Below, in pieces: positions 16,021 to 32,467 of a stretch of 64,000 nt of DNA. Under the pieces are notes generated by a model, which saw only the letters and a program-made list of their open reading frames with translations, searched no databases and was not told the origin of the DNA. The stretch is from contig JANYGX010000022.1 in assembly GCA_025362295.1 (NCBI GenBank), forward strand, positions 1 to 64,000, in the 5' to 3' direction. Every line of letters starts with the position of its first letter. Within the stretch, counting starts at the first letter, position 1. The translations under genes and the position numbers were made by a program. The DNA comes from Sphingomonadales bacterium (GTDB lineage Bacteria > Pseudomonadota > Alphaproteobacteria > Sphingomonadales > Sphingomonadaceae).

Positions 16021-16051
16021 TTGCTGAGCGTCTTATAGCCATACGTATAAA
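16021..16051 (+). promoter_or_regulatory. Putative promoter of the first GH13 gene with overlapping operator ATACGTAT
   Basis: In the 252-base gap between the PEP-CTERM gene and the GH13 gene, TTGCTG (16021-16026) and TATAAA (16046-16051) are spaced 19 bases. The perfect 8-bp palindrome ATACGTAT (16041-16048) overlaps the -10 element. The same 8-mer occurs upstream of the TonB receptor gene at 20142, and a related site precedes the transporter gene. Also seen here: a direct repeat ATATAGTTA (15975 and 15988) and an inverted repeat TGACG/CGTCA (16066-16070, 16078-16082). Assignment to the LacI-type regulator is inference. Confidence 0.4.
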
Positions 16052-16110
16052 CATAAGTGATGCTATGACGCTGTTAACGTCACTAAGGATATTTTGAAAA
16101 GGTATTGAGA

Positions 16111-17493
16111 ATGCGTATTTTTTCTACATTATTATTTACTCTGTTATGCAGCTGCTTTTTTAGTGTTGATGTTTCATCGCTTGCTGCTGCAACTGACCCT
16201 TATACACCACAAAACTTCGTCAGTCTGACCAACCCTGATTGGTCAAAAAATGCCATCCTGTATGAGTTGAACACGCGTCAGTTCAGTTCTGAAGGCACAT
16301 TCAAAGCTGCAGAAAAACAGCTGCCAAGATTGAAGACACTCGGTATTGATATTATCTGGCTCATGCCGATCAATCCCATTGGCATCAAAAACCGTAAGGG
16401 CACACTGGGTAGCCCGTATTCAGTGCGAGATTATCGCGCTGTCAATCCCGAATTCGGGACGCTTGAAGATTTGAAGTCGTTCGTCAGTGCCGCGCATAGA
16501 TTTGGGATGCATGTTATTCTGGATTGGGTGGCCAACCACACAGCATGGGATAATGCGTTGGTTGATGATCATCCTGATTATTATGATCACGACTGGAAAG
16601 GAGCATTTCACCCGACGCCATGGCGCGACTGGTCTGATATAATTGATCTTGATTACAGCCATGCTGGCCTTCGTCGCTACATGGCCGACTCGATGAGCTA
16701 TTGGGTGAAGACTGCCGATATTGATGGATTTCGCTGTGATGTGGCTGGCTATGTGCCGGTGGATTTCTGGAATACAGTCCGTAAAAATCTTTCAGCAATA
16801 AAGCCAGTTTTCATGCTGGCAGAATGGGACACCCGTGATTTGCACGCAGCGGCTTTTGATGCAACATATAGCTGGGCATGGTACAACACTGTAAAGGATA
16901 TTGCGCAAGGCAAGGCTGATGCTACAGCGCTATATACTTATTATGCCGACACTGCACGCAGCTATCCCCGTGAAGCCATGCGCATGACCTATATTGAGAA
17001 TCACGATAAAAATGCGTGGGACGGTTCCATGTATGATATTTTTGGTGATGCGATTCAAGTAACGGCTGTGCTCTCTGTTGTTGGCGAGGGCATTCCACTG
17101 ATCTACAACGGCGTTGAAGCGGGCAATCACAAGCGATTAGCTTTTTTTGACAAAGATCCGATTGTCTGGCGAGATGATCCTATGCGGAAGCTTTTTACAA
17201 ACTTGATTGCATTTAAAAAAGCCAACTCGTCACTCTGGAATGGCCAATGGGGTGCGCGGATGATCAAGGTTGATAACAGTGCCGAAGGCAAGATATTCAG
17301 TTTCATCCGACGTGGTCAGGGTAATACAGTGCTTGCTGTGCTAAACCTGACTAAAAACCCGCAAACGTTTTTATTGGATAAACAACTGTCACCAGGCGAT
17401 TATAAAGATTTTGCAACGCATGAAGCCGTAAATATTAACGACAAGACTATGATGACATTGCCGGCTTGGGGATATAAATTATTGTCTCGCTAA
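16111..17493 (+). CDS. Secreted alpha-amylase family (GH13) glycoside hydrolase
   Basis: A 460-residue GH13 protein that should cleave alpha-glucosidic bonds in maltodextrins or starch outside the cytoplasm. The signal peptide covers about residues 1-28 (hydrophobic core then SLAAA). The (beta/alpha)8 barrel motifs are DWVANH, DGFRCDVA with nucleophile Asp210, AEWD with acid/base Glu238, and ENHDKN with Asp299. The C-terminus is a short beta domain. The ATG at 16111 has GAAAAGG 8 bases upstream; a TTG two codons earlier was not used. It is convergent with the transporter gene, overlapping by 4 bases, and its promoter carries a motif shared with the TonB receptor promoter. Subfamily and product specificity cannot be fixed from sequence alone. 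Confidence 0.9.
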   Translation: MRIFSTLLFTLLCSCFFSVDVSSLAAATDPYTPQNFVSLTNPDWSKNAILYELNTRQFSSEGTFKAAEKQLPRLKTLGIDIIWLMPINPIGIKNRKGTLGSPYSVRDYRAVNPEFGTLEDLKSFVSAAHRFGMHVILDWVANHTAWDNALVDDHPDYYDHDWKGAFHPTPWRDWSDIIDLDYSHAGLRRYMADSMSYWVKTADIDGFRCDVAGYVPVDFWNTVRKNLSAIKPVFMLAEWDTRDLHAAAFDATYSWAWYNTVKDIAQGKADATALYTYYADTARSYPREAMRMTYIENHDKNAWDGSMYDIFGDAIQVTAVLSVVGEGIPLIYNGVEAGNHKRLAFFDKDPIVWRDDPMRKLFTNLIAFKKANSSLWNGQWGARMIKVDNSAEGKIFSFIRRGQGNTVLAVLNLTKNPQTFLLDKQLSPGDYKDFATHEAVNINDKTMMTLPAWGYKLLSR

Positions 17494-18947
17494 ACTTTCT
17501 CACTATGCACACGCATCATTGCAAGTGCGGCCATGGCCATCACAAACGTCGCGACAAGCATGGTCCAGATGGGTTCGCCCGGAAAGAGCGTACGCATCAA
17601 GCCGCCCATGAGTGTGGCAACCAGAAGCTGCGGTAGCACAATAAAAAAGTTAAAGATGCCAATATAGATGCCGAGTTTGTCTTGCGGCAAAACATCAGTC
17701 AGAATAACATAAGGCATAGTTAGGATCGATGCCCACGCTACGCCAATGCCAATCATGGGGAAAATCAATAACCATTTGTCCCGCATCATAAAAATCATTG
17801 CATAGCTGACAGCGCCAATTAGCAGGCATAACATATGTGTTTTCGGTGCGCCCAATCGGCGCGTTAGAAACGGCAGGCAAAAAGCCGCCACCGCAGCCAC
17901 GCCATTATAAACCGAGAACATAACATCAACCCAGTCAGCGCCATTATTATAAATTTGTGAAGCTGTATTGGTTGAGTGATAAATATACTGCGTGACAATT
18001 GGTGTCGTATATATCCACATGATAAACAGCGCTATCCATGTGAAAAACTGTGCGAGTGCCAAGCGCTTCATAGCTTCCGGCATTTGTGCAAGGTCGCTGA
18101 GAATAAATCCGAGGGCGCCAGATGATCCGGCAAACTGATTGAACACTTGCAACGCACCAAACACAGCCAGCCCACCACCCAGAATATAAAGTTGCTTATC
18201 AAGGTGGAAAGACCGGATTATAAATAGTATTGCAATGCCAGCACTCAACCACAGCCAGCCTTTGTCAGGCACGCTATAATTATCACGTTTCAACAGGGTG
18301 GCGTCACTGTCAAAGCTCCGCATCTCTTCCGGTGTATATTCGCGTGTGCGCAACACTGTCCACAGGACAGCACAAAAAATCGATGCCGCCCCTATATAAA
18401 AACCGTAGCGTACAGAGGGTGGCACGATGCCAGTTGCAGCTGTGTTGGCAATGCCAAGCTTCGTCATAATGATGGGAGCCAGCGACCCGATAACGGCACC
18501 GACACCGATAAAGGCGGTCTGAAATGCAAACCCTTTGGTGCGCTGGTCTGGGGGCACCATGTCTCCAACAAAAGCACGAAACGGTTCCATGGAAATATTC
18601 AATGACGCATCCAGCAGCCACAATAACAAGGCCGCAGCCATCAATATGCCAGCATTCGGCATCAACACCATAGCGAGTGTTGCAAGCACAGAGCCGCCTA
18701 GGAAATAGGGTCGCCGCCTGCCCAAACGCCCCCACGTACGGTCACTGTAATGGCCGATCAGTGGTTGCACCAGCAAACCGGTCACGGGTCCGGCAATCCA
18801 CAAGATTGCCAGATTATCAACACTGCTGCCAAGTGACTGGAAAATCCGACTGATATTGGCATTCTGAAGCGCAAATGCCATCTGAATACCCAAATAGCCG
18901 AATGAAATATTCCATAATCCCCAAAAGCCCTGGCGCGGTTTCTGCAT
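17490..18947 (-). CDS. GPH/MFS-type sugar transporter (SLC45-like, probable maltose/maltodextrin uptake)
   Basis: A 485-residue inner-membrane protein with 12 hydrophobic segments. The N-terminus WNISFGYLGIQMAFALQNAN, the loop GHYSDRTWGRLGRRRPY and the paired loop RRLGAPK are typical of the sucrose/maltose:proton symporters of the SLC45-like group found next to maltose loci in Caulobacter, Xanthomonas and Sphingomonads. It should move maltose or short maltodextrins from the periplasm into the cell. AAGGAG lies 8 bases upstream of the ATG. It reads in the same direction as the LacI-type regulator gene located 97 bases upstream. Substrate is inferred from context. Confidence 0.85.
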   Translation of the reverse strand: MQKPRQGFWGLWNISFGYLGIQMAFALQNANISRIFQSLGSSVDNLAILWIAGPVTGLLVQPLIGHYSDRTWGRLGRRRPYFLGGSVLATLAMVLMPNAGILMAAALLLWLLDASLNISMEPFRAFVGDMVPPDQRTKGFAFQTAFIGVGAVIGSLAPIIMTKLGIANTAATGIVPPSVRYGFYIGAASIFCAVLWTVLRTREYTPEEMRSFDSDATLLKRDNYSVPDKGWLWLSAGIAILFIIRSFHLDKQLYILGGGLAVFGALQVFNQFAGSSGALGFILSDLAQMPEAMKRLALAQFFTWIALFIMWIYTTPIVTQYIYHSTNTASQIYNNGADWVDVMFSVYNGVAAVAAFCLPFLTRRLGAPKTHMLCLLIGAVSYAMIFMMRDKWLLIFPMIGIGVAWASILTMPYVILTDVLPQDKLGIYIGIFNFFIVLPQLLVATLMGGLMRTLFPGEPIWTMLVATFVMAMAALAMMRVHSEKV

Positions 18948-19016
18948 AGCCCGTCTCCTTGTTGTTATGCCACAAGATTACAGAATTCATGTTTGCGCAC
19001 AATGCCATGAGCCGAT

Positions 19017-19026
19017 ACATACGAAT
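19017..19026 (-). promoter_or_regulatory. Putative LacI-type operator before the sugar transporter
   Basis: Read on the minus strand this is ATTCGTATGT, matching ATACGTATGT before the TonB receptor gene (20142-20151) at nine of ten bases, and ATACGTAT before the GH13 gene. It lies 69 bases upstream of the transporter start in the gap between transporter and regulator. Match was found by eye only. Confidence 0.35.
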
Positions 19027-19044
19027 GCATAAACTTTAGCCGAG

Positions 19045-20076
19045 TTATCGTGCCATGCAGGATTTACGTATAATAAGCTTTGCAGGCAGCACACTGGTGT
19101 CTGCCTTTTCATTGCGAATGAGTTTGAGCAAGGTATCAACAAGTGATTCGCCGGCGCGCTTGTAATCCTGCTGAACGGTCGTGAGTGGCGGATGAGCAAG
19201 ACTTGCTGCTGGAATATCATCGAAACCCACCACAGAAACATGCTGCGGTATAGCCACATTGTTCCCTTCTAGAGCGCGAATGGCACCAATGGCAATAAGA
19301 TCGCTTGCGGCAAAAATAGCATCAAATTTTACACTGCTGTTGATGAGTGCCATAGCGGCATCATAGCCAGATTGTTCTGTGTTTATGGCATTGATCTGCC
19401 TGTCGTTTGCAACGCGAATGCCACTGCTTTTTTGAGCCTCGCAACAGCCCCGGTACCGATCATGAAATTCAGGGTAGTGGCTGCTGGCGTCACCTAGAAA
19501 GGCAATACGCCTGCGGCCAATACTGATCAAATGTTGCGTTGCATCGTAGCCACCACGGAAATTATCGCAGCCAATTGTGGTGCCGGGCTGGCCGGGCTGC
19601 ACAAATCCCCAACGCACAAAATGTGTTCCTTGCTCTACGAGTTTTTCCAGCCTGGCATGATACAGCTCATAGTCACCGTAGCCCAATAAAATTATACCAT
19701 CAGCTTTTCGGCTATCTTCAAAATCCATATGCCAATTACTGGAGAGTTGTTGAAATGATATTAGCAGGTCATAACCACGTTGTGCACAGGTGCGTGTGAT
19801 AGATCCCAGCATGGACAAAAAAAACGGATTAATAAGCGAATCATCCGGCGTGGGGTCTTCAAAAAACAGCAGTGCAATTGTATTTGTCTGCTGCCGTCTC
19901 AAACTTGAAGCATTTTTATCAACCTTGTAGTTGAGCTGATGCGCAATGGCTTCAATGCGCTTGCGTGTCTGTTCACTGACTGTCGTGCTGCCACGTAACG
20001 CACGCGACACAGTGGGCTGTGAAACGCCAGCCAGCTGCGCAATATCAAACGACGTTGGCTTGGGGTGATGTGTCAC
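19045..20076 (-). CDS. LacI/GalR-family transcriptional regulator (probable maltodextrin regulator)
   Basis: A 343-residue repressor-type protein. The N-terminal helix-turn-helix and hinge region reads FDIAQLAGVSQPTVSRALRG followed by RKRIEAIAHQLNY, then a periplasmic-binding-protein-like domain with GFDDIPAASLAHPPLTTVQQ near the C-terminus. The GTG start has GAGG 8 bases upstream. It is divergent from the TonB receptor gene and upstream of the transporter gene. It probably senses maltose or an oligosaccharide and controls the surrounding genes, as MalR does in Caulobacter-type loci; the effector is inference. Confidence 0.9.
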   Translation of the reverse strand: MTHHPKPTSFDIAQLAGVSQPTVSRALRGSTTVSEQTRKRIEAIAHQLNYKVDKNASSLRRQQTNTIALLFFEDPTPDDSLINPFFLSMLGSITRTCAQRGYDLLISFQQLSSNWHMDFEDSRKADGIILLGYGDYELYHARLEKLVEQGTHFVRWGFVQPGQPGTTIGCDNFRGGYDATQHLISIGRRRIAFLGDASSHYPEFHDRYRGCCEAQKSSGIRVANDRQINAINTEQSGYDAAMALINSSVKFDAIFAASDLIAIGAIRALEGNNVAIPQHVSVVGFDDIPAASLAHPPLTTVQQDYKRAGESLVDTLLKLIRNEKADTSVLPAKLIIRKSCMAR

Positions 20077-20141
20077 TTATTTACCTCACTCATGCTGTAT
20101 TTGATGAAAAAAGATTATATTTGATAGGCGATGTATATTGA

Positions 20142-20149
20142 ATACGTAT
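20142..20149. promoter_or_regulatory. Palindrome ATACGTAT in the regulator/TonB receptor intergenic region
   Basis: Perfect 8-bp palindrome with central CG, as is common in LacI-family operators. It occurs again at 16041 in front of the first GH13 gene and in altered form at 19017. It lies upstream of the candidate -35 of the receptor gene and 66 bases from the regulator start, so it could control both directions. Confidence 0.4.
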
Positions 20150-20160
20150 GTGCATAGCTT

Positions 20161-20214
20161 TTGCAATAGAGCATAAAACAAGTAATAAATATGCATAGTT
20201 CGCAAAGGTGCGAA
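20161..20214 (+). promoter_or_regulatory. Putative promoter and second inverted repeat upstream of the TonB receptor
   Basis: TTGCAA (20161-20166) and TAATAA (20183-20188) are 16 bases apart and could be -35 and -10 elements. Just downstream lies TTCGC-N6-GCGAA (20199-20203 and 20210-20214), which would sit near the transcription start and could be a repressor site or part of the leader. The leader to the ATG at 20265 also has a GGGAGGA ribosome binding site. Boundaries are tentative. Confidence 0.35.
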
Positions 20215-20264
20215 TATATTTTGCAGTCAAACCAGACCGGATAGGCTGCCCTTGGGAGGACTAA

Positions 20265-23174
20265 ATGCTGAAATCACTTTCAAATTCAACGTCTGTGCGT
20301 GCCCGTCTTGTGTTGGGTACGAGCGTAACGGCCATTGGTGTCGCACTGGTGATGACTGTACCGTCTGCTGCGTATGCGCAGGCTGTAAACGATGCAAAAC
20401 CCGCGACCGCAGCTGATGCGAAAAACGAAAAGGTTGAGGAAATTGTGGTAACCGGCCTTCGTAAATCCATTGAAAGTTCAATTCGCGTTAAAAAATTGTC
20501 TACATCAATCGTTGAATCTATCACGGCAGAAGACGTGGGTAAATTGCCGGATGTGTCGATTGCCGACTCAATTTCGCGTCTGCCTGGTGTTACATCCCAG
20601 CGGCTTGAAGGCCGTTCGGATGTATTGTCTATTCGCGGCTTGGGGCCAGATTTCAGCACGGCTTTGTTCAATCACCGCGAAATAGTCTCCGTAAGCGACA
20701 ATCGAGGTTTCCAATACGACCAAATTCCATCTGAATTGCTGAACCGTGTTGATGTGATTAAAACGCCATCGGCCGATCTGGTCGGGCAGGGCCTTGCCGG
20801 AACAGTTGACATGACAACAATCAGTCCACTTTCGCAGGCACACCGTATACTTTCAGTTTCGGTTCGCGGTGAACTCAATGGTTTAAAATCGCTCAACCCG
20901 GATGTTACCAATAAAGGGTATCGTGGTGCATTGATTTATGTCGACAAGTTTGCCAATGATACCATAGGCATTTCATTGGGCGCCACAGCCATTTCAAGTC
21001 CTGTTCAGGTGCAGCAGTTTCAGGCCTGGGGTTATGCAACATTAAGCTTCAACAATGATAAATATGGAGATCGTCACCAGGTAACGCCTGGCAAAAATTC
21101 AGACAATGACACATTTACTGTCAAGCCGCAGTATGCGAATTTGCCATTCGGTACTCAGCTTTTGGGTGGAGCAAAAGCCTTCGCCACATCGAATCTGCTA
21201 AATCGTCAATCGGCTTTTGCGCGTTTTGAGTACAAGCCCGGCAGTAATTTTGAAATGTCGTTTGATGCTCTGTATTCAAAATATAAAACTACAGAGCAAC
21301 AACGTGGGCTGGAAATTCCGTTGGGCTTTAGCGGTGATCCCATAGTTTCGAACGTCACGACTGTAAACAATCTGGCCACAAACGTCACTTACAGCAATGT
21401 AACGGCCGTTCAACGCAACAACTACAACAAGCGCGACGCCAACACATTAGTGTTGGGCTGGAATGGAAAATATGATTTCAGCGATCATTTAAAACTAACG
21501 CTCGATGCAAATTATTCCCGTGCCAAACGACACGATTTCTTGCTGGAAACATATTCAGGGACCGGGTATCAAAAATCTGGTGTTAAAGACACTGTTACCA
21601 TCGCGCAGTTGCCGAACCAGACCTATAATTTTACAACGACTTTGAATTACAACGACCCGAATATTTTTAAATTAACAGACCCGCAAGGCTGGGGCTATAA
21701 TGGTGTTAGCCCGGTTGTGCAGGCAGGTTTTCTCAACGCACCTGACTTCAAGGATGAAATGAAATCATTCCGTGCAAATCTCGACGGCGATCTGCACGCA
21801 GGTGTGTTGTCGAGCTGGGAACTTGGCGTTAACTACAGTGATCGATCAAAAACAGCCGCTTATCGTTCTGCATTTCTGTCACCCGGGCCAACGCTGGCCA
21901 CCACGTCGCTGCCATTGCCGCCCTCTATTGGCAACACCAGCATAGCATATCTTGGTATTCCGGCTATTTACACATATAATCCGCTTGTAGCTTATGCCGC
22001 ACTGTTGCCAACCTTTGATAATCGCCCCGGCTCGTTGGCAAGAGATTATGTGGTCGATGAAAAAGTTATAACTGGCTATGTCAAAGTTAATATCGATGGT
22101 ATTATTGGTGCGCTGCCGCTCAAGGGTAATTTTGGCGTTCAGGTGGTGTATACCAACCAGAGTTCAAAAGGTTCTGCGGCAACCACAACCACAACAAAAG
22201 ATGCGAACGGCAACGACGTTCTTAACGTCATAGCACAACCGGTTACGGGTGGTGCAAAATATACATATGCCCTGCCAAGCCTCAATCTTTCACTTGAGGC
22301 TGACCATGATTTTTTTATTCGCCTCGGTCTTGCCAGAACCTTGGCGCGTGCGCGCCAAGATCAGATAGCGATCAGCTCGACATTTAGCGTTAATAACTCA
22401 AACAACAATTATGCGTTCAGTGGTAACGGGGGTAACCCGCAATTAAGACCATATATCGCGGATGGCGTGGATTTATCGTTTGAAAAATATTTTGCGCATG
22501 GCTCAGGGTATTTGTCTGTTGCCACATTCTACAAACACATCAGTAATTTTGTAGACTCAACAAACTTCACTTATCTTGATTTGTCCGGTGTTGCAAGTCA
22601 GTTGCTGTCTCCTGCAGAGTACACACAATTTAGCGGAAAATATTTCGCTATTATCACGTCGCCGACCAATGCAGCTAAGGGTGATATGAAGGGTATTGAG
22701 GTTGCCCTAACCTTACCCTTCTCGTTGTTTACAGAATCGCTGGATGGCTTTGGTTTGATTGCAAACGGCTCCTATACAGATAGCGCCGTGGCATTGAAGG
22801 CTGGCAAGGTTACAATTCCTGGCCTTTCCAAAGAGGTTGGTACACTGCAGGTATTCTTTGAAAAATACGGTTTGCAAGTGCGCAGCAGCCTGAACTACCG
22901 GAGCCAGTTTTTGGGTGAGGAGGCTGGCCTTTCAGCAACGCCAAACTTCCTGACGGTTGCCGCGACAACCACACTCGATGCGCAGGTTGGTTATGAGTTC
23001 AAGGAAGGTTTCATGAAGGGCTTTGCCATTCAGTTTCAAGCCAAGAACATCACCAATGAGCCATTTGTAACCTATAATCCGGTTGCCATTGGCCAGACTG
23101 TCGATAAACGGCAGGTTATAGATTATCAAAAATATGGCCCAACCTATCTGCTTGGCGCTACGTACAAATTCTGA
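20265..23174 (+). CDS. TonB-dependent receptor (probable maltodextrin/starch uptake)
   Basis: Outer-membrane transporter of 969 residues. Signal peptide ends near SAAYAQA (about residue 39). The TonB box region EEIVVTGLRKS (about residues 59-69) is followed by a plug domain with LPDVSIADSISRLPGVT and RGLGPDFSTALFN, then a 22-strand type barrel ending in the aromatic C-terminus GATYKF. It belongs to the large receptors typical of carbohydrate uptake in Caulobacterales, Sphingomonads and Xanthomonads, rather than the siderophore type. It leads the operon with halogenase-like and glycoside hydrolase genes, which points to alpha-glucan oligosaccharides as ligand. Energy would come from TonB-ExbBD; one such set is at 39-42 kb. 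Confidence 0.93.
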   Translation: MLKSLSNSTSVRARLVLGTSVTAIGVALVMTVPSAAYAQAVNDAKPATAADAKNEKVEEIVVTGLRKSIESSIRVKKLSTSIVESITAEDVGKLPDVSIADSISRLPGVTSQRLEGRSDVLSIRGLGPDFSTALFNHREIVSVSDNRGFQYDQIPSELLNRVDVIKTPSADLVGQGLAGTVDMTTISPLSQAHRILSVSVRGELNGLKSLNPDVTNKGYRGALIYVDKFANDTIGISLGATAISSPVQVQQFQAWGYATLSFNNDKYGDRHQVTPGKNSDNDTFTVKPQYANLPFGTQLLGGAKAFATSNLLNRQSAFARFEYKPGSNFEMSFDALYSKYKTTEQQRGLEIPLGFSGDPIVSNVTTVNNLATNVTYSNVTAVQRNNYNKRDANTLVLGWNGKYDFSDHLKLTLDANYSRAKRHDFLLETYSGTGYQKSGVKDTVTIAQLPNQTYNFTTTLNYNDPNIFKLTDPQGWGYNGVSPVVQAGFLNAPDFKDEMKSFRANLDGDLHAGVLSSWELGVNYSDRSKTAAYRSAFLSPGPTLATTSLPLPPSIGNTSIAYLGIPAIYTYNPLVAYAALLPTFDNRPGSLARDYVVDEKVITGYVKVNIDGIIGALPLKGNFGVQVVYTNQSSKGSAATTTTTKDANGNDVLNVIAQPVTGGAKYTYALPSLNLSLEADHDFFIRLGLARTLARARQDQIAISSTFSVNNSNNNYAFSGNGGNPQLRPYIADGVDLSFEKYFAHGSGYLSVATFYKHISNFVDSTNFTYLDLSGVASQLLSPAEYTQFSGKYFAIITSPTNAAKGDMKGIEVALTLPFSLFTESLDGFGLIANGSYTDSAVALKAGKVTIPGLSKEVGTLQVFFEKYGLQVRSSLNYRSQFLGEEAGLSATPNFLTVAATTTLDAQVGYEFKEGFMKGFAIQFQAKNITNEPFVTYNPVAIGQTVDKRQVIDYQKYGPTYLLGATYKF

Positions 23175-23190
23175 TTTAAAATATCTGTTT

Positions 23191-23233
23191 TAACCCCTGT
23201 CAGCTTTTATACTTTATATGTTGGCAGGGGTTA
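23191..23233 (+). terminator. Hairpin between the TonB receptor and the downstream operon
   Basis: TAACCCCTGTCA (23191-23202) pairs with TGGCAGGGGTTA (23222-23233) over 12 positions with one G-U pair and a 19-base loop. It is followed by TTTATTC, only a short T run. It may be a leaky terminator or a 3' stabilising structure that gives the receptor more mRNA than the enzymes. An ATG at 23218 lies in the loop, which argues against it as the start of the next gene. Confidence 0.5.
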
Positions 23234-23256
23234 TTTATTCAGGCAAACAAGGTCGC

Positions 23257-24759
23257 ATGAACAATAAAACAATAATCATTGTTGGTGGCGGCACAGCGGG
23301 GTGGATGGTTGCCGCAGCATTGTCGCGTTTTTTGGAACATGGTTATAATATACAGCTTGTTGAATCTGACGAACTCGGCACCATAGGTGTTGGTGAAGCA
23401 ACCATTCCTCAGATCCAGCTCTTTAATAAAGCGCTTGGCATTGACGAGAATGAGTTCATGCGTGCCACCAACGGTAGCTTTAAACTTGGTATACAGTTTG
23501 TTGATTGGTTGCGGCCTGGTCACAGTTATATGCATGCGTTCGGCACTATTGGCCGTGATCTTGGCCTTATTCCCTTTCATCAATACTGGTTGCGCGCACG
23601 TGCTCTTGGATCGAATGCCAGTTTAGATGCCTATACGCTGAGTGGCAGTGCAGCATTTGCTAACAAATTTATGCGTGGTGCACCGACTGTAAACGCACCA
23701 ATGGGTGCAGCTGCTTATGCCTTTCATTTTGATGCTGGGCTTTATGCACAATATTTGCGGCGCATTGCAGAAGCGCGGGGTGTTGTGCGCACAGAGGGTA
23801 AAATCACATCCGTGGCACTGGCGCCGCTGACCGGTTATGTGGAAAATGTTTCATTGGAACATGGCCTGACACTGCAAGGTGATATTTTTATTGATTGCTC
23901 GGGCTTTCGCGGATTGCTGATCGAAGAAGCACTGCACACAGGTTACGATGACTGGTCAAAGTGGCTGCCGTGTGATCGCGCATTGGCCGTACCGTGCGCA
24001 CCAGCCCCTGTGCTGACACCCTATACACGCTCAACAGCACAATCCGCTGGCTGGCAATGGCGCATTCCGTTGCAACATCGCACGGGCAATGGCCACGTTT
24101 ACTGCAGCGCCTACACGAGTGATGATGCAGCTGCTAACACTCTTATGAAAAATCTTGATGGTAAAGCGCTGACTAATCCAAGGCCGCTCAAATTTGTTAC
24201 AGGAAAACGTAAAAAAATATGGAATAAAAATGTTATTGCCATGGGGCTTGCGGCAGGTTTCCTTGAGCCGCTTGAATCGACCAGCATTCACTTGATACAA
24301 TCTGCCATTCAGCGCTTTATAAATTTTATACCCGGCATAAATATTTCCTCAATAGATGTTGAAGTGTTCAATGCGCAAATTGATTTTGAATATGAAAGAG
24401 TGCGTGATTTCATCATTTTGCATTATAAAGCCAATCAACGTGATGATCCATTTTGGCGTGCGTGTCGGGAAATGCCAATTCCACAAGCTCTCACTGATAA
24501 AATTGAATTGTTCAAAACCAACGGGCGTATTGTTCGTTTTAATGAGGAATTATTTGCAGAAGCAGGCTGGTTGCAGGTTATGTCAGGGCAGGGCATTGAG
24601 CCACAGAATTATCATCCACTGGCTGATCAACCCAGCGAAGAGGATTTGCTAGGATTTTTGTCCGCCATACGCTTAGCAGTTAGTCAGGGTGTGCATGCGA
24701 TGCCAAGTCACGCCGAGTATATTACTGAACATTGTCGTGCAACAGGTCATTATGCATAA
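23257..24759 (+). CDS. Tryptophan-halogenase-like FAD-dependent protein (first copy)
   Basis: A 500-residue flavoprotein of the tryptophan halogenase family. It has the FAD-binding GGGTAGWM (residues 10-17), the family GWQWRIPLQHRTGNG motif, Lys76 in GSFKLGIQF at the position of the catalytic lysine of PrnA/RebH, and LEPLEST containing the matching glutamate. Relatives next to TonB receptors are common in Caulobacterales, Shewanella and Sphingomonads, but their substrates are unknown, so halogenation should not be assumed. The ATG at 23257 follows AAGG; an upstream ATG at 23218 falls in a hairpin loop. It overlaps the next gene by 8 bases. Confidence 0.88.
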   Translation: MNNKTIIIVGGGTAGWMVAAALSRFLEHGYNIQLVESDELGTIGVGEATIPQIQLFNKALGIDENEFMRATNGSFKLGIQFVDWLRPGHSYMHAFGTIGRDLGLIPFHQYWLRARALGSNASLDAYTLSGSAAFANKFMRGAPTVNAPMGAAAYAFHFDAGLYAQYLRRIAEARGVVRTEGKITSVALAPLTGYVENVSLEHGLTLQGDIFIDCSGFRGLLIEEALHTGYDDWSKWLPCDRALAVPCAPAPVLTPYTRSTAQSAGWQWRIPLQHRTGNGHVYCSAYTSDDAAANTLMKNLDGKALTNPRPLKFVTGKRKKIWNKNVIAMGLAAGFLEPLESTSIHLIQSAIQRFINFIPGINISSIDVEVFNAQIDFEYERVRDFIILHYKANQRDDPFWRACREMPIPQALTDKIELFKTNGRIVRFNEELFAEAGWLQVMSGQGIEPQNYHPLADQPSEEDLLGFLSAIRLAVSQGVHAMPSHAEYITEHCRATGHYA

Positions 24760-26446
24760 AATATTATTTTTATTGCTACTATTGATGGCATCATCTTCAA
24801 GTGCTGAAAGTTTTCGCACACGGTTGCCACAGGATGAGGTTATCTATTTTGTGTTGCCAGATCGTTTTGAAAATGGAGACACCAGCAATGATCGCGGTGG
24901 AATGCAGGGTGATCGTCTGAAAACAGGGTTCGATCCCACCTCAAAAGGCTTTTATCATGGCGGAGATTTAAAAGGTTTGATGTCACGGCTGAATTATATT
25001 CAGGGTTTGGGTGTTACAGCCATTTGGCTTGGTCCTGTATATAAAAACAAATCTGTGCAAGGTGCGCCAGGACACGAAACGGCTGGCTATCATGGCTACT
25101 GGATTACAGATTTCACGCAGGTTGATCCGCATTTTGGCACCAATGCGGATTTGAAACAGTTGGTTGATGCAGCGCACGCACGTAATATAAAAGTCTACCT
25201 TGATATTATTACCAATCATACGGCAGATGTTATCAAGTATAAAGAGTGCAATCCCTGTGCGTATCGCAGCCTAGGCGATTATCCGAATGCAGCCTACACG
25301 CCGTTTGTGCCCGAATCCGAACATCATATTAAAAAACCTGACTGGCTTAACGATCCCAAATATTATCATAATCGAGGTGATTCAACGTTTCACGGTGAAA
25401 GTTCCTTGCTGGGTGATTTTAGCGGCCTTGACGATTTGAAAACAGAAGATCCAGAAGTTGTGCAAGGCTTCATCGATATTTATGGCAACTGGATTGATAA
25501 TTTTGGCATAGATGGCTTTAGAATTGATACTATAAAGCATGTCAATCCAGAATTCTGGCAAGTATTTATTCCAGCTATGCAATCCCGGGCGAGAGCAAAA
25601 GGCATTGCCAATTTTCATATATTTGGTGAAGTTTACAATGAAGATATGAACCCGGGTGGTCTTGCTAAATACACCCGTGAAGACAAAGTGCCGACAATAC
25701 TTGATTTTGCCTTTCGTGCTGCAATTCTTGCAACAATTGCTGGTCAACGCGGCACAGATATACTCACAAAACTATATGAAGGTGATGTGCTGTATGAAGG
25801 TGGCGCAGCAACGGCATTGCAGCTGCCAACCTTTATCAGCAATCATGATGCAGGGCGATTTGCCTATTTTGTGCGGAAAGCATTTCCAAGCGCAAGCGAC
25901 GCGGAGCAATTGAAAAGGGTTGTTCTCGCGCACGCCATGATGTTTACATTGCGTGGTGTGCCAGTTATTTATTCAGGCGATGAGCAAGGGTTTGTTGGCC
26001 ATGGTGGCGATCAGGATGCGAGAGAGGATATGTTTGCATCAAAAGTAACGGATTATAATAATACCATTTTACTCGGTGGTCATGCAGCGAAAAGTTTAAA
26101 CAATTTTAATCCCGATCATAAGCTCTATAAAGCATTTTCTTCACTCACGCATCTGCGAGCAATTAATCCTGCATTGCGTCGCGGGTTGCAAACGGTTCGA
26201 GCTGATGATGAAAAACCAGGCCTGTTTGCTGTGTCGCGGATTGATCCTGACAATGGTCACGAAACTATTGTAGCGTTTAATACATCGGTATTTCCGGTTG
26301 AACGTAATATTACTGTCAATACTAATAGTCACGCATTTCATGCACTGAAAGGAACTTGTGCGTCTTCAGAGAGAGTGTCCGGTAGCTATAATATTACAGT
26401 ACCACCACTCGATTACATAGTGTGCGCAACTGGTGATTTAAGATGA
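24752..26446 (+). CDS. Secreted alpha-amylase (GH13)
   Basis: A 564-residue GH13 enzyme with a clear signal peptide (MHKILFLLLLLMASSSSA), so active in the periplasm or at the cell surface. Barrel motifs: DIITNH, DGFRIDTIKH with nucleophile Asp259, FGEVYNED with the acid/base glutamate, and ISNHDAG with the stabilising aspartate. An insert with a cysteine pair (KECNPC) follows DIITNH. It starts inside the end of the halogenase-like gene, and its stop overlaps the next start as ATGA, so the genes are translationally coupled. It probably breaks maltodextrins imported by the receptor into shorter sugars. Confidence 0.92.
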   Translation: MHKILFLLLLLMASSSSAESFRTRLPQDEVIYFVLPDRFENGDTSNDRGGMQGDRLKTGFDPTSKGFYHGGDLKGLMSRLNYIQGLGVTAIWLGPVYKNKSVQGAPGHETAGYHGYWITDFTQVDPHFGTNADLKQLVDAAHARNIKVYLDIITNHTADVIKYKECNPCAYRSLGDYPNAAYTPFVPESEHHIKKPDWLNDPKYYHNRGDSTFHGESSLLGDFSGLDDLKTEDPEVVQGFIDIYGNWIDNFGIDGFRIDTIKHVNPEFWQVFIPAMQSRARAKGIANFHIFGEVYNEDMNPGGLAKYTREDKVPTILDFAFRAAILATIAGQRGTDILTKLYEGDVLYEGGAATALQLPTFISNHDAGRFAYFVRKAFPSASDAEQLKRVVLAHAMMFTLRGVPVIYSGDEQGFVGHGGDQDAREDMFASKVTDYNNTILLGGHAAKSLNNFNPDHKLYKAFSSLTHLRAINPALRRGLQTVRADDEKPGLFAVSRIDPDNGHETIVAFNTSVFPVERNITVNTNSHAFHALKGTCASSERVSGSYNITVPPLDYIVCATGDLR

Positions 26447-28080
26447 ACGATTCGACAATCAAAAATACTGTGATAAAAGCTCCAGATGAATGGTGGAAAG
26501 GGGCTGCAATCTATCAAATTTATCCGCGAAGTTTTGCTGACTCAAACGGAGATGGTGTTGGAGATTTACCAGGTATAACGGATCGATTGGAATATGTTGC
26601 TGCGCTTGGCGTTGATGCCATTTGGCTGTCACCATTTTTTACGTCGCCAATGAAAGATTTTGGCTATGACGTTGCAGACTATTGCAATGTAGATCCACTG
26701 TTTGGAACCTTAAATGACTTTGATGCACTGATTAAACGTGCGCATATTCTGGGTTTGCGTGTGACTATAGATCAGGTTTATTCACATACGTCAGATCAGC
26801 ATATATGGTTCATGGAGTCGCGTGCCAGTCAAAAAAATGATAAATCAGACTGGTACGTGTGGGCAAATGCAAAGGCAGACGGTTGCCCGCCAAACAACTG
26901 GCAATCCGTTTTCGGTGGTCCGGCGTGGACATGGGATGCGCGACGTCAGCAATACTACATGCATAATTTTTTGGGTAGCCAGCCGCAACTGAATGTACAT
27001 AACCGTGATGTTCAAGATGCATTGCTTGGCTCTGCACGTTTTTGGCTTGAGCGGGGAGTAGATGGTTTTCGCCTTGATGCTCTGAACTTTTCGATGCATC
27101 ATCCGAGTCTTCTAGATAACCCTCCTGCGGATACTATCGGCCATAATAGTGGCGCGTTGCGGTCTCGCCCCTTTGATTTTCAAAAACATATTTATAACCA
27201 ATCCCATCCAGATATTCCATTGTTTCTTGAACGGATCAGATCACTGACACTGGAGTACGGTTGCTGTTTCACAGTTGCAGAAGTGGGTGGTGCTGACGCT
27301 ACAGCTGAAATGCAAAACTTCACTATGGGAACAAATCGACTTAACAGTGCTTATGGATTTGATTATTTACACGCTCATAAACTTACAGCATCACTCGTTC
27401 GTAAAACCATAGAAGATTGGCCGAATGCAGTAGGCACAGGGTGGCCAAGTTGGGCTTTTTCAAATCATGATGCACCACGTGCCATATCACGCTGGGCATC
27501 GCCAGAAAACCTGGATGCATGTGCTCGATTGTGTATGTTGTTGTTAATTTCTCTTCGAGGTAATATTTTTATATACCAAGGTGAGGAGCTTGGTTTATCG
27601 CAAGTCGATATTGGTTTTAATGACCTTCGAGACCCTGAAGCGATTGCCAATTGGCCGCTTACTCACGGGCGCGATGGCGCTAGAACACCAATGCCATGGA
27701 AAAAGAACTGTTCAGGTCATGCATTTACCGATGGTAAACCCTGGTTGCCCTTTGGCTCTGATCATGCAGCTCTTGCTGTAGATCAGCAAGAACTTGATGC
27801 GGTCTCGATGCTCAACCTCACGCGTCAACTTATTGCGTTTCGTAAAAAACACATTGCGTTAGTTTGTGGCTCAGCAACAGTCATAAATACACCAGAGCCG
27901 CTTCTGGTAATTGAGCGAAAACATGGCCAGCAGCATTTGCTGTGCATTTTTAATTTTGGTGATACTGAAATCACATGGCAACCCGAAAATCCTGACGCAT
28001 GGCACATCCTGAAATCAGTTGGGAATGCATCACACTGGATGCTCCCGACATTCAGCGGCATGATAGTTGAAAGGCTATAA
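26443..28080 (+). CDS. Alpha-glucosidase (GH13, oligo-glucosidase type)
   Basis: A 545-residue GH13 protein without signal peptide, so probably cytoplasmic. The N-terminus WWKGAAIYQIYPRSFADSNG is typical of alpha-glucosidase/oligo-1,6-glucosidase subfamilies. Catalytic motifs: DGFRLDALN with nucleophile Asp212, VAEVGG with acid/base Glu280, and FSNHDAPR with Asp343. It would release glucose from maltose or short maltodextrins brought in by the GPH transporter. It overlaps the upstream amylase gene by 4 bases. Exact bond preference (alpha-1,4 or alpha-1,6) is not certain. Confidence 0.92.
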   Translation: MNDSTIKNTVIKAPDEWWKGAAIYQIYPRSFADSNGDGVGDLPGITDRLEYVAALGVDAIWLSPFFTSPMKDFGYDVADYCNVDPLFGTLNDFDALIKRAHILGLRVTIDQVYSHTSDQHIWFMESRASQKNDKSDWYVWANAKADGCPPNNWQSVFGGPAWTWDARRQQYYMHNFLGSQPQLNVHNRDVQDALLGSARFWLERGVDGFRLDALNFSMHHPSLLDNPPADTIGHNSGALRSRPFDFQKHIYNQSHPDIPLFLERIRSLTLEYGCCFTVAEVGGADATAEMQNFTMGTNRLNSAYGFDYLHAHKLTASLVRKTIEDWPNAVGTGWPSWAFSNHDAPRAISRWASPENLDACARLCMLLLISLRGNIFIYQGEELGLSQVDIGFNDLRDPEAIANWPLTHGRDGARTPMPWKKNCSGHAFTDGKPWLPFGSDHAALAVDQQELDAVSMLNLTRQLIAFRKKHIALVCGSATVINTPEPLLVIERKHGQQHLLCIFNFGDTEITWQPENPDAWHILKSVGNASHWMLPTFSGMIVERL

Positions 28081-28081
28081 T

Positions 28082-30115
28082 ATGAAGCGATTATATAATA
28101 TATTTTTGATAGTTACTGTATATTTTCAGGCAATGGCCTTGAAGGCTGAGACTGTGGCAACGATAACCTCGCCGAACAAAAATCTGGTTGTTCATATCTT
28201 GATCAACGGCGAAGGTCGGCCTGGGTATAATGTCGAAAGCAATGGCAAGAATCTTGTCTCGGAATCCCGTCTGGGCTTCTTACTCAGCGATGCACCACAG
28301 TTGGCGCGTAATTTCATATTCGTGAATGCTGTTGAACGAAGTGAAGATGGCACTTGGAAACAGCCGTGGGGAGAATGGGAAAGCATTCGCAACCACTTTA
28401 ATGAGTTAAAAGTTAGAATTCAGGAAAAAACACCATTGCACCGGCAACTCGATATTGTTTTTCGCGTATATGATGATGGTATCGGTTTTCGTTATGAGTT
28501 TCCGGAACAACCAACTCTAAAAATTGCAAATATCGTTGAAGAGTTAACGCAATTTAATTTGGCGGAGCCTGCTACTGCTTGGTGGATACCGGCTATTGAA
28601 TCCAATCGTGAAGAGTATTTATATAACAAAACGTCGATAGACGAAGTTGGTCTCGCGCAAACGCCGATGACCGTAAAGCTTTCAAGTGGCAGCTATATTT
28701 CTTTTCATGAAGCGGCACTTGTCAATTACTCGGCCATGAATATTCAAAAAGTTGAGGGCCGCCATCTGAAAGCCGTTCTAACCCCAAGCAGCTCAGGGCC
28801 TAAGGTTACAAGAGCTTTGCCATTTGTAACACCATGGCGAACCTTGACGATCGCAAGCGATGCACCAGGGTTATATATGTCGCATCTCATCCTGAACTTA
28901 AACGAGCCGAATAAACTTGGTGATGTATCATGGGTACACCCCCGAAAATATGTCGGTATCTGGTGGGGTATGCATCTCGATACTCAAAGCTGGGCATCAG
29001 GCGTAAAGCATGGTGCTACAACAGCCTACGCAAAAAAAATGATTAATTTTGCTTCAAAAAATGGTTTTTCTGGCTTGCTGGTTGAAGGCTGGAATCAAGG
29101 GTGGGATGGCGACTGGTTTGCAAATGGCGATGATTTCAGTTTTACCAAAGCCTATCCAGATTATGATCTTGATGCCGTCGTTGCGTATGGAAAAACCAAA
29201 AATGTCTCAATTATAGCGCACAACGAAACGTCAGCGAATGCTGCGCATTACGAGGCTGAAATGGGAGCCGCATTTGATCTTTATAAAAGCCTTGGTATTG
29301 ATACGATCAAGACTGGTTATGTTTCAGATGCCGGTGGCTTTCGAGTGCGAAAGCCTGATGGTTCGATAGTTTTTGATTGGCATGAAGGGCAGGCGTCATC
29401 TGTGCATCATCTTAAAGTTGTGACGGAAGCTGCAAAACGTCATATAGCGATAAATCCGCATGAACCGATTAAAGATACTGGATTGAGGCGGACTTACCCT
29501 AACTGGATTTCACGGGAAGGAGCCCGTGGTATGGAATACAATGCCTGGGGTGTGCCGAAAAATCCACCAGCGCACGAAGCCAATTTGGTATTCACGCGCA
29601 TGCTGTCTGGTCCATTTGATTCAACGCCAGGTGTGCTTAGTTTGAAAGGTCGCGATAACAGTGATATTTTGTCAACGGAAGCAAAACAGTTAGCGCTTTA
29701 TGTGGTCATTTACAGCCCTATACAAATGGTGCCAGACTTGCCGGAAAATTACGAAAATCACTTGCCAGCATTGCAATTCATAAAAGATGTGCCAACAGAT
29801 TGGTCAGACACCCGCGTTCTCGCTGGTGAAATTGGAGATCATGCTGTTATTGCAAGAAAAGACAGGGCCAGCGATAACTGGTATCTTGGTGCCGTTGGCA
29901 ACGATCAATCCCACATGCTGACTGTCAAACTTGATTTTCTCTCTGCACACACAACGTATCTCGCGCAGATTTATCGAGATGGCTCAAAGGCGGATTATCG
30001 CACCGAAGCCAAGCATTCTATGATTATTGAATCACGGAAAGTTCATGCAGGCGATAAATTGACTTTACCTATCGCACCGGGAGGTGGTGAGGCAATTCGG
30101 TTTGTCGCACAATAA
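28082..30115 (+). CDS. SusB-like alpha-glucosidase (GH97)
   Basis: A 677-residue GH97 enzyme with an N-terminal signal peptide (about 22 residues, ending near ALKAE), so periplasmic. The family layout is an N-terminal beta-sandwich, a barrel from about residue 280 and a C-terminal beta domain. Key motifs are AHNETSAN, IKTGYVSDAGG, NPHEPIKDTGLRRTYPNW and GMEYNAW. The glutamates in the HEP and MEY motifs fit the inverting SusB type, not the retaining alpha-galactosidase type, which would use an aspartate. The ATG at 28082 starts 1 base after the upstream stop. Its TAA overlaps the next ATG by one base. Confidence 0.9.
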   Translation: MKRLYNIFLIVTVYFQAMALKAETVATITSPNKNLVVHILINGEGRPGYNVESNGKNLVSESRLGFLLSDAPQLARNFIFVNAVERSEDGTWKQPWGEWESIRNHFNELKVRIQEKTPLHRQLDIVFRVYDDGIGFRYEFPEQPTLKIANIVEELTQFNLAEPATAWWIPAIESNREEYLYNKTSIDEVGLAQTPMTVKLSSGSYISFHEAALVNYSAMNIQKVEGRHLKAVLTPSSSGPKVTRALPFVTPWRTLTIASDAPGLYMSHLILNLNEPNKLGDVSWVHPRKYVGIWWGMHLDTQSWASGVKHGATTAYAKKMINFASKNGFSGLLVEGWNQGWDGDWFANGDDFSFTKAYPDYDLDAVVAYGKTKNVSIIAHNETSANAAHYEAEMGAAFDLYKSLGIDTIKTGYVSDAGGFRVRKPDGSIVFDWHEGQASSVHHLKVVTEAAKRHIAINPHEPIKDTGLRRTYPNWISREGARGMEYNAWGVPKNPPAHEANLVFTRMLSGPFDSTPGVLSLKGRDNSDILSTEAKQLALYVVIYSPIQMVPDLPENYENHLPALQFIKDVPTDWSDTRVLAGEIGDHAVIARKDRASDNWYLGAVGNDQSHMLTVKLDFLSAHTTYLAQIYRDGSKADYRTEAKHSMIIESRKVHAGDKLTLPIAPGGGEAIRFVAQ

Positions 30116-31629
30116 TGTCACCCGAAAAGCTATTCCGTATTGTTATACTCGGAGGTGGTACAGCAGGGTGGATGACAGCTAATCTTATGGCGCATCGCTG
30201 GCGCGACAAGCCAGTTGAAATCATCGTCGTTGAATCACCAGATATTGGTATTATTGGAGTCGGTGAAGGGTCAACGCCGCAGCTGCGAGAATTCTTTGCG
30301 AAACTTGATATTGCCGAAAATGAGTGGATGCCTTGCTGCAGTGCTACTTATAAAAATGGTATTTCCTTCTACGGCTGGACAGAATGTCCTGGGTTCGAGC
30401 ATTATTTCCACCCTTTTCCCACTGTGCTTGATGATCACACAGTACCATTTTTTTATTTTCATACGCGCGCCAGACGTACAGGACGCAATGTTCATGCACA
30501 TCCCGATCGTTTTTTTCTGCCAGCCGCCTTGGCAAGGCAACGTTTGGGGCCGAAGCCTGATAAAAACTTTCCGTTTGACGTGGCTTACGGCTACCACTTT
30601 GATGCCCATCTTGTGGGAATATTCTTACAAAAACATGCAACACAAAAGCTGAATGTTACCCACCTTCAATATACGATAACACATGTAAATAAGAATGCTA
30701 ACGGTGAAATTTCGTCACTTACAACCAGCGATGATCAATCAATTGAAGGTGATTTTTTTATTGATAGCAGTGGCTTTCGCTCAGCACTTTTGCAACAGGC
30801 GCTTGAAGAACCGTTCTTATCGTTCAAAGATAATCTTTTCAACGATAGCGCTGTCGCCATGCCAACAACTTGTGATGACGACGTAATTCTTTGTGAAACA
30901 CGCGCAGTTGCTCTCACCAATGGTTGGGCGTGGAAAATTCCACTGACCAATCGAACCGGTAATGGGTATGTCTACAGCTCCGATTTTATCAGTGATGATG
31001 CCGCTGAAACAGAATTACGCACCCACCTTGGATTGCTTGACAGTGATGTGCCGGCACGGCGTTTGAAAATGAACGTTGGTCAAGTATCGCGCCATTGGGT
31101 TAAAAACTGTTTGGCTGTAGGGCTGGCGCAGGGTTTCATTGAACCTCTGGAAGCAACCGCTTTGCATATTGTGCAAACAACAGTCGAAATGTTTATGGCA
31201 GCTTTTGAAGACGGAGAATTTACCAACACAAAAGCAGTGCCGTTTAATGAGGCTATAGCGGCACGTTTTAATGGTATCCGCGATTATATTGTGTGTCATT
31301 ACCGGATGAATGGACGCAAGGATACGGACTACTGGCGGGCCAATGCGGTAAACCAAAATTTATCTCATTCTTTGAAATCCATTATGTCGTGCTGGTTTAC
31401 CGGTGGTGATTTGGTGGCAGAGATTGAAGGCCAGAATATTGGTCAATACTATGCACCACTGTCGTGGCACTGCCTATTGGCCGGGTACGGGATTTTCCCT
31501 GAGGATGATAAATTGCAACCTCCGGAGGCAGGACTTGATATTGCCAACATGCAGAAAATTGATACATTTATTGACAGTTGCGCTTTAAATTTTGAATCTC
31601 ACGATAAGATGTTATCCCGTCTTAAATAG
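30115..31629 (+). CDS. Tryptophan-halogenase-like FAD-dependent protein (second copy)
   Basis: A 504-residue paralogue of the protein encoded at 23257-24759. FAD motif GGGTAGWM (residues 13-20), Lys80 in ATYKNGISF at the catalytic lysine position, GWAWKIPLTNRTGNG and IEPLEAT with the glutamate. The two copies differ strongly outside the motifs, so this is not a recent duplication. It is the last gene of the operon, coupled to the GH97 gene by a TAATG overlap. Substrate unknown. Having one copy at each end of the enzyme block suggests different substrates or a two-step reaction; this is inference. Confidence 0.88.
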   Translation: MSPEKLFRIVILGGGTAGWMTANLMAHRWRDKPVEIIVVESPDIGIIGVGEGSTPQLREFFAKLDIAENEWMPCCSATYKNGISFYGWTECPGFEHYFHPFPTVLDDHTVPFFYFHTRARRTGRNVHAHPDRFFLPAALARQRLGPKPDKNFPFDVAYGYHFDAHLVGIFLQKHATQKLNVTHLQYTITHVNKNANGEISSLTTSDDQSIEGDFFIDSSGFRSALLQQALEEPFLSFKDNLFNDSAVAMPTTCDDDVILCETRAVALTNGWAWKIPLTNRTGNGYVYSSDFISDDAAETELRTHLGLLDSDVPARRLKMNVGQVSRHWVKNCLAVGLAQGFIEPLEATALHIVQTTVEMFMAAFEDGEFTNTKAVPFNEAIAARFNGIRDYIVCHYRMNGRKDTDYWRANAVNQNLSHSLKSIMSCWFTGGDLVAEIEGQNIGQYYAPLSWHCLLAGYGIFPEDDKLQPPEAGLDIANMQKIDTFIDSCALNFESHDKMLSRLK

Positions 31630-31670
31630 TGAAATCATAACCCTTAATTATAGCTTTATTCATATTTTTG

Positions 31671-32351
31671 TTATGTAAGTTCCAAAAAAGTGTTCACTGT
31701 CAAGCGGCCCCGAAGCGGATCAGCTGTCAAAGTGGTCCCTGCATCTATGTGCGCACAGTGCAATGTAATGCCGCGATAGAGGATCGCGCGGTTAAACTTA
31801 GCCTCGTGCAGCGCAATTTGATCATACAGCGGCGTATCACCGGATATATAGCGTGCAATCGGCAGACCATCTCGCTGCACATCAGCTTCAAGCGTTTTCG
31901 AGAAATGCTCGAAGCGATCTGCTGTTACTGTTTCATAACCTGTCGAACGGTGACGGTAAAATGCTGTGCCGCCTTGTTCTGGTGTTCCAAGATAATGCAG
32001 CAAGGCAAGTCGTCGGGGATCAAGACCATCAAAGTGCGGTAGGCGCTGTATTGGCATCAACCTTTCTGCTGGCGTCGTCACTAGAGAGTATAATGATTCA
32101 ACAATATCAAACTGGCTTGCCCCAAAAACATCCGCTACTAACGATGCGAGGTTTTTTGTGAATTCAATAACGCTATCGGGCGCTACAGCGGATCGAATAC
32201 CTGGATAATAAGGCCCCATGATACCGAATTGCTGCGATGATGCCGCTTTTTTCAGCCCTTCAGGGTCCGATGCAAAATTATCGATAATGATGACAGGCTG
32301 CTGTTCTGTGCCATGATATTCAATTTTTACATCCCACCAACTATTGATCAC
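31671..32351 (-). CDS. DUF6445-like protein, possible 2-oxoglutarate/Fe(II) oxygenase fold
   Basis: A 226-residue protein convergent with the halogenase-like operon. It resembles the DUF6445 proteins that accompany TonB receptor/halogenase/SapC clusters. The residues His106-x-Asp108 (LPHFDG), a distal His (LHCAHI, 198 or 201) and Arg216 (RGRLTVN) are laid out as in prolyl-4-hydroxylase-like oxygenases. No signal peptide, so cytoplasmic. Start is GTG. It lies 41 bases from the end of the operon but on the other strand, so it has its own promoter. The oxygenase activity is a hypothesis from the residue pattern. Confidence 0.6.
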   Translation of the reverse strand: MINSWWDVKIEYHGTEQQPVIIIDNFASDPEGLKKAASSQQFGIMGPYYPGIRSAVAPDSVIEFTKNLASLVADVFGASQFDIVESLYSLVTTPAERLMPIQRLPHFDGLDPRRLALLHYLGTPEQGGTAFYRHRSTGYETVTADRFEHFSKTLEADVQRDGLPIARYISGDTPLYDQIALHEAKFNRAILYRGITLHCAHIDAGTTLTADPLRGRLTVNTFLELT

Positions 32352-32467
32352 CGCTCACCCAATTTGTTCCAATTATAAGTTATACAGTTTCAACATAGCT
32401 GTAGACATGAATAGGTATGCCGTCACGGCACCCTTTCACTGGTAAGATGATTGGACTATAGACAGTT

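Follow-up and report, generated by a model that had tools for sequence, protein, structure and literature searches.

Within a 64,000-nucleotide stretch of a Sphingomonadales contig (JANYGX010000022.1; this whole stretch is called the window), we found a complete alpha-glucan uptake locus at 16105-31629, a maltodextrin-type CUT (carbohydrate utilisation with TonB receptor) locus, which encodes two predicted flavin-dependent halogenases, FDH1 and FDH2. Genes of the FDH1 type follow a class of TonB-dependent receptor (TBDR) and not the glycan, while FDH2 and the product of a neighbouring gene, DUF6445, are accessory parts that occur sporadically. We tentatively read this arrangement as a possible receptor-dedicated system for aromatic halogenation, in which a hydroxylase would be optional. 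The genes concerned are listed below, with profile scores in brackets.

16105-17493, + strand: third glycoside hydrolase family 13 (GH13) enzyme (PF00128, 118 bits)
17490-18947, - strand: MFS sugar transporter (PF07690, 74.4 bits)
19045-20076, - strand: LacI-family regulator, divergent from the receptor operon (PF13377/PF00356)
20265-23174, + strand: TBDR of the TonB-Xanth-Caul subfamily (TIGR01782, 547.6 bits; cut-off 310)
23257-24759, + strand: FDH1, flavin-dependent halogenase of the BrvH/Xcc4156 type (PF04820, 633.7 bits)
24752-26446, + strand: GH13 enzyme with a signal-peptide-like start, judged by eye (PF00128, 226 bits)
26443-28080, + strand: GH13 alpha-glucosidase-like enzyme (PF00128, 392.7 bits)
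28082-30115, + strand: GH97 enzyme (PF10566, PF14508, PF14509)
30115-31629, + strand: FDH2, second flavin-dependent halogenase, of a separate clade (PF04820, 424.2 bits)
31671-32351, - strand: DUF6445 (PF20043, 237.7 bits)

The genome of the window comprises 2.59 Mb in 37 contigs, and 30 window proteins, ten of them from the locus, were scanned with Pfam. The gene order was GH13, MFS transporter and LacI regulator, and then, divergent from LacI, TBDR, FDH1, GH13, GH13, GH97 and FDH2. The gene set of a maltodextrin CUT locus (TBDR, alpha-glucan hydrolases, inner-membrane transporter and regulator) was all found together. The original prediction, made for 20265-32351, had described a starch locus with receptor, hydrolases and transporter; all were found, the transporter lying outside that interval. 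FDH1 to FDH2 formed one coupled run on the + strand. The FDH1 stop overlapped the GH13 ATG by 8 nt (24752-24759), the two operon GH13 genes overlapped by 4 nt, a spacing of 1 nt preceded the preferred GH97 start (ATG 28082, rather than TTG 28067 of the longest open reading frame, ORF), and GH97 and FDH2 overlapped by 1 nt. These junctions confirmed the translational coupling of both flavoproteins to the hydrolase block. DUF6445 is encoded on the other strand and converges with FDH2, the gap between them being 41 bp; it is therefore a neighbour outside the operon.

To relate halogenases to receptors, we compared 60 FDH rows with 70 TIGR01782 receptors from 19 genomes; FDH rows below 170 bits and genomes outside the receptor search were left out. 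PF04820 was matched at E <= 0.001 in 36 of 59 relatives, and over its cut-off in 33. Of the 60 FDHs, 55 had a TIGR01782 receptor no more than 10 kb away, in agreement with the earlier statement that such flavoproteins are associated with TonB receptors; by an arithmetic estimate, about 3% of the roughly 60 Mb of DNA in these genomes is so close to a receptor. Seen from the receptors, 33 of 70 had an FDH at most 3.5 kb away. The order TBDR-FDH-GH13-GH13-GH97 recurred in several genera, a second common setting contained GH16 and GH3, i.e., beta-glucan genes, and further settings carried SapC and Cupin_8. As alpha-glucan (GH13/GH97) loci and beta-glucan (GH16/GH3) loci both show the linkage, the FDH1 type tracks the receptor.

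Of the 296 genomes of the order, 136 had a match to a profile built on the receptor clade of the window. We surveyed 124 clade receptors of at least 796 bits; 10 in genomes already mapped, all FDH-linked, were left out. An FDH was present within 10 kb of 82 of the 124 among the matches listed, and of the remaining 42, 41 were checked by sequence stretch, giving 36 with and 5 without FDH. Overall, 118 of 123 receptors of the clade have an FDH nearby. The five FDH-less loci (L215, L248, L249, L250 and L254, read as 14 kb stretches) form a natural comparison set; four of their genomes have FDHs elsewhere, and G202 has none at E 1e-40. Eight lower-scoring receptors (from 12 rows, the rest being fragments or the unlinked L116) had no FDH nearby; four of them, L256-L259, were in full GH13/GH97 receptor loci without FDH in the 14 kb read.

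Receptor and halogenase were also inherited together. In a set of 109 receptor-FDH pairs, 88 from the window's receptor clade and 21 others, the tree distances of the two proteins were correlated (Mantel r 0.58, against 0.14 for the best of 2000 permutations), and the nearest FDH relative shared the receptor class in 109/109 pairs. FDHs of two loci in the same genome were farther apart than from their counterparts in other genomes in all eight comparisons listed.

Both flavoproteins have the features of halogenases. FDH1 and FDH2 exceeded the PF04820 cut-off of 21 bits, and both contain GxGxxG (GGGTAG in FDH1), WxWxIP (WQWRIP in FDH1) and the catalytic Lys and Glu. As originally predicted, the alignment placed the catalytic Lys at residue 76 of FDH1, counted from the preferred ATG 23257 (residue 89 from 23218, where the longest ORF begins), and at residue 80 of FDH2; the Glu is within EPLEST and EPLEATAL, respectively. 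The Fx.Px.Sx.G motif was not matched, as the halide-site Gly is Ser in FDH1 (ESTS) and Ala in FDH2 (EATA). According to PMC7336383, BrvH and other Xanthomonas campestris halogenases are also non-Gly at this site and yet active, and because of these exceptions the motif does not define the family. The best PDB matches of FDH1 were 9luq (527 bits), 6y1w (493 bits) and 6frl (488 bits). FDH2 fell into a different clade of 11 members (support 1.0) and had tryptophan halogenases as its nearest sequence matches; its model (predicted local distance difference test score, pLDDT, 83.3) had tied fold matches to SttH, AbeH, Xcc4156 and PyrH at Z 40.8-41.6.

Lys and Glu were both kept in 73 of 79 FDHs from the relatives and the window: 53/53 of FDH-I, 6/6 of the FDH2 type, 0/4 of a degenerate class, and 14/16 of other class-II-like rows, where one exception was cut off at the Lys and the other was degenerate. 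They were also kept in 125/125 FDHs longer than 450 aa from later loci, a few of which may repeat earlier ones. Halogenase chemistry is thus under strong constraint, although the pattern falls short of proving it.

Five degenerate FDH paralogues were observed (L031:12300-13505, G023:C1:920387-921520, G014:C1:57993-59480, G032:C15:181375-182742 and G029:C35:314964-316577). The GGGTAG box and the catalytic Lys were absent in 5/5 and the Glu in 4/5, and four of the five were flanked by two intact FDH-I genes. Such a paralogue is possibly a conserved pseudohalogenase subunit.

The original prediction had proposed a survey of whether such loci consistently carry both FDH paralogues and DUF6445. The FDH1 type proved near-universal, as the 118 of 123 clade receptors indicate; the FDH2 type and DUF6445 were sporadic. 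DUF6445 was found in 15 of 59 relatives. A genome scan, whose counts rest on the best 80 of 417 DUF6445 relatives, placed an FDH within 6 kb of DUF6445 in 52/80 loci and within 300 bp in 37/80; a receptor of either type was within 6 kb in 49/80, and receptor and FDH both in 46/80. Ten of 60 further receptor loci have DUF6445, all with an FDH. Four loci (L138, L141, L149 and L159) contained FDH2-type, FDH1-type, DUF6445, GH13, GH97 and receptor genes in a different order. At L144, from Lysobacterales, DUF6445 adjoins an FDH2-type gene, and GH13, GH97 and receptor genes were not detected there.

We considered FDH2 and DUF6445 as a fixed pair. Six of the 11 FDH2-clade members were near DUF6445, but five of these came from the DUF6445-based search; in an unbiased search, seven genomes had an FDH2-type gene and only that of the window had DUF6445 beside it. 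A general pairing was rejected.

Each of the three FDH loci in the window's genome has a gene of a 2-oxoglutarate (2OG)-oxygenase family no more than a few kb away; at two loci it encodes DUF6445 and at one a TPR + 2OG-FeII_Oxy_5 protein. The latter gene (L026:4726-6099) is divergent from a TonB receptor gene, which is followed by an FDH. At another locus, the gene of a 755-aa protein without Pfam or NCBIfam match (L025:12316-14583) separates an FDH-DUF6445 pair from a TonB receptor gene; many DUF6445 loci are spaced in a similar way, so that it may recur.

DUF6445 is predicted to be a 2OG/Fe(II) oxygenase with a prolyl-hydroxylase-like fold. The HxD...H...R pattern noted originally was confirmed: in an alignment of 53 sequences (the window's and 52 of 61 length-filtered members from the 80 loci), H106, D108, H198 and R216, i.e., the HxD...H iron triad and the Arg for 2OG, were invariant in 53/53 rows. 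The DUF6445 model (pLDDT 96.6), which has the double-stranded beta-helix fold of the superfamily, had 186 PDB matches at E <= 0.001, and the top rows were mostly named 2OG/Fe(II) oxygenases, including OGFOD1 (Z 13.9), mimivirus L230 (13.3), lysyl hydroxylase (13.2), algal P4H (13.2) and LH3 (12.9); PHD2 was also among the best protein-hydroxylase alignments. The small-molecule enzymes SnoN and HygX followed at Z 12.8, so close that the ranking cannot settle between a protein and a small-molecule substrate. A PDB sequence search at E up to 1 gave no match. Most of the named relatives of DUF6445 come from alphaproteobacteria, and sphingomonads are frequent among these.

A protein target linked to the receptor would agree with a linkage that crosses glycan types, with dedicated halogenase lineages and 2OG partners, and with the open pocket described in the literature. 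In BrvH and Xcc4156 the pockets are open and free Trp is not accepted, and a peptide substrate has been proposed for them (PMC7336383 and PMC5945002). FDH1 would belong to a cytosolic FADH2-dependent halogenase lineage dedicated to one TonB receptor class; we infer the cytosolic location of the FDHs from starts that, by eye, are not signal-like. With O2 and halide, FDH1 would brominate or chlorinate an aromatic side chain; its substrate would be a protein or peptide linked to the biogenesis of the receptor, the first choice being the receptor itself before export. FDH2 would perform the same reaction at a different site or on another partner, and DUF6445 would hydroxylate the same target. Halogenation in vivo, a protein as the substrate and the receptor as the target are all presumed in this scheme. 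A wider version, in which halogenases such as FDH1 and FDH2, with one dedicated lineage per receptor class, modify TonB receptors or their partners in the cytosol before export and DUF6445, or elsewhere Cupin_8 or TPR-2OG proteins, hydroxylates them, we consider doubtful.

The search for a target gave one conserved residue. W476 of the receptor, probably in an extracellular loop, was invariant in 37/37 FDH-linked clade receptors and F or Y in five sisters of the same alignment; it was kept in 47/47 FDH loci among the 60 further receptor loci, and the FDH-less outgroup alpha-glucan receptors L256-L259 are without it.

Several results weigh against a receptor-dedicated system. W476 was also kept in 5/5 clade members without a nearby FDH, including that of G202, and in an alignment of 66 receptors, loose in this loop, the column held W in 11/31 linked and 3/35 unlinked receptors. 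The residue was not accepted as evidence of a halogenation site, since the Trp persists in FDH-less clade members and occurs in unlinked receptors; it may instead bind sugar. When these 31 FDH-linked and 35 unlinked TIGR01782 receptors were compared (two of an initial 33 and two of an initial 37 were not recovered), no aromatic column singled out the FDH-linked group. The earlier suggestion of a modified receptor residue may still hold, but the sequence test for such a residue was negative. Nine alpha-glucan receptor loci (L215, L248-L250, L254 and L256-L259) have no FDH in the 14 kb read, indicating that it is dispensable, and 26/80 DUF6445 loci had none in the stretch covered, some stretches being short. 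No flavin reductase was found among the 30 window proteins scanned. Finally, operon co-inheritance alone could yield the agreement of the receptor and FDH trees.

In the main rival reading, the FDH substrate is a small diffusible aromatic produced in the presence of the sugar, such as an indole-like signal or a tryptophan-derived metabolite, and the receptor link reflects co-regulation only. We regard this as unlikely. In its favour, in vitro bromination of free indole and its derivatives has been described for BrvH and Xcc4156 (PMC5945002 and PMC7336383), and free-tryptophan halogenases are the closest sequence matches of FDH2 and tie in their fold scores. However, low indole turnover led the authors of BrvH to doubt indole as its natural substrate (PMC5945002), one FDH lineage per receptor class exceeds the needs of a shared small signal, and no biosynthetic genes were found among the ten locus proteins scanned.

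A less probable alternative is that the FDHs no longer halogenate in vivo and instead work as flavin-dependent monooxygenases, as redox sensors or as chaperone-like partners of the receptor operon. The Ser and Ala at the halide site, the degenerate paralogues beside intact ones, and a weak similarity, far below the cut-off, to QhpG and LodB speak for it. We take the latter two to be peptide-modifying flavoenzymes. The retention of Lys and Glu (53/53, 6/6 and 125/125 rows) is hard to explain without halogenase chemistry, and BrvH and Xcc4156 are non-Gly at the halide site and still active (PMC7336383).

That the FDHs modify the imported glycan or a glycan-linked group, as their tight operon with alpha-glucan hydrolases might suggest, is very improbable, because alpha-glucan lacks aromatic groups, FDHs of this type also occur in beta-glucan loci, and alpha-glucan loci without FDH exist. 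On the same grounds, the original proposal of a target specific to the alpha-glucan pathway is not supported, and that of a glycan-linked aromatic is unlikely.

Candidate regulatory sites at the locus were as follows.

16041-16055: operator-like site ATACGTATAAACATA, upstream of the third GH13 gene
20142-20156, + strand: operator-like site ATACGTATGTGCATA, between LacI and receptor
23191-23233, + strand: terminator-like hairpin in the receptor/FDH1 gap (dG -27.3 kcal/mol, z -3.73)

The hairpin has a stem of 14 bp. Scored against 60 mononucleotide shuffles, 14 of the 21 gaps between a receptor and an FDH on the same strand, among them that of the window, had z <= -2 and seven did not; inspection by eye often showed a GC-rich stem with a T run after it. 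The hairpin may act as a leaky terminator that holds receptor expression above that of the enzymes. The operator-like pattern was picked after the sites were viewed, so its chance figure is flattering. Co-regulation of DUF6445 through a one-mismatch copy of GAATACGTATG at 32409 was rejected, as copies with at most two mismatches numbered 10 against 14.7 expected by chance.

Elsewhere in the window, a PEP-CTERM protein is encoded at 15052-15858, just upstream of the GH13 gene at 16105 and on the opposite strand. An ExbB/MotA proton-channel domain is fused to DUF2341 and Laminin-G-like domains at 40095-41846; close by, a TonB_2 protein is encoded at 38957-39667 and a beta-helix protein at 37048-38739.

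Our survey ties the BrvH-type lineage to one outer-membrane receptor class and to 2OG oxygenases. With loci named that have and lack the FDH, the function of BrvH-type halogenases becomes testable by mass spectrometry of one receptor. If true, the wider version of a receptor-dedicated system would be a protein-modifying halogenase system that tunes nutrient receptors. Among the papers listed in the literature searched, with most subscription journals outside it, none was on the receptor-halogenase link; PMC11337851 has both words in an unrelated setting and does not link the genes.

Among known systems, the maltose/maltodextrin loci XCC2469 of Xanthomonas and malA of Caulobacter combine a TonB receptor, alpha-glucan enzymes, a sugar transporter and a repressor, as here (PMC1790865). 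The word halogenase is absent from the main text of that paper. In the Caulobacter vibrioides genome used as a control, PF04820 and TIGR01782 both had matches. DUF6445 shares its modelled fold and the H, D, H and R residues with prolyl and lysyl hydroxylases and OGFOD1, although no PDB sequence matched it. We presume that halogenase genes occur in Xanthomonas sugar loci.

FDH2 aligned with the tryptophan halogenase BorH (6ul2) at 310 bits, and SttH, PyrH and others of this group, which includes RebH and PrnA, matched at Z ~40. In the alignment, FDH2 is shorter than BorH and RebH at the segment before SYYC, which we take to be the region holding free Trp, and unlike these enzymes it is found in a sugar-uptake context. 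MibH (5uao), a lanthipeptide tryptophan halogenase, shares the variant-A fold with FDH2 and is a model for a peptide substrate; however, FDH2 matched it less well (157 bits, Z 36.3), and no obvious precursor-peptide gene for a ribosomally synthesized and post-translationally modified peptide was found in the three gaps read (ORFs of at least 20 aa).

FDH1 is closest to the variant-A halogenases BrvH (6frl) and Xcc4156 (6y1w), which it resembles over its length (488 and 493 bits), and at the position that is Gly in most FDHs it has Ser, like BrvH. PMC7336383 describes the native substrates of such halogenases as unknown. What sets FDH1 apart from BrvH and Xcc4156 is its place in a receptor/alpha-glucan operon that includes a further FDH and lies beside the gene of a predicted 2OG oxygenase. 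The enzymes belong to known families and are of a known kind, as BrvH and Xcc4156 exemplify; within the literature searched, their combination and its scale are new.

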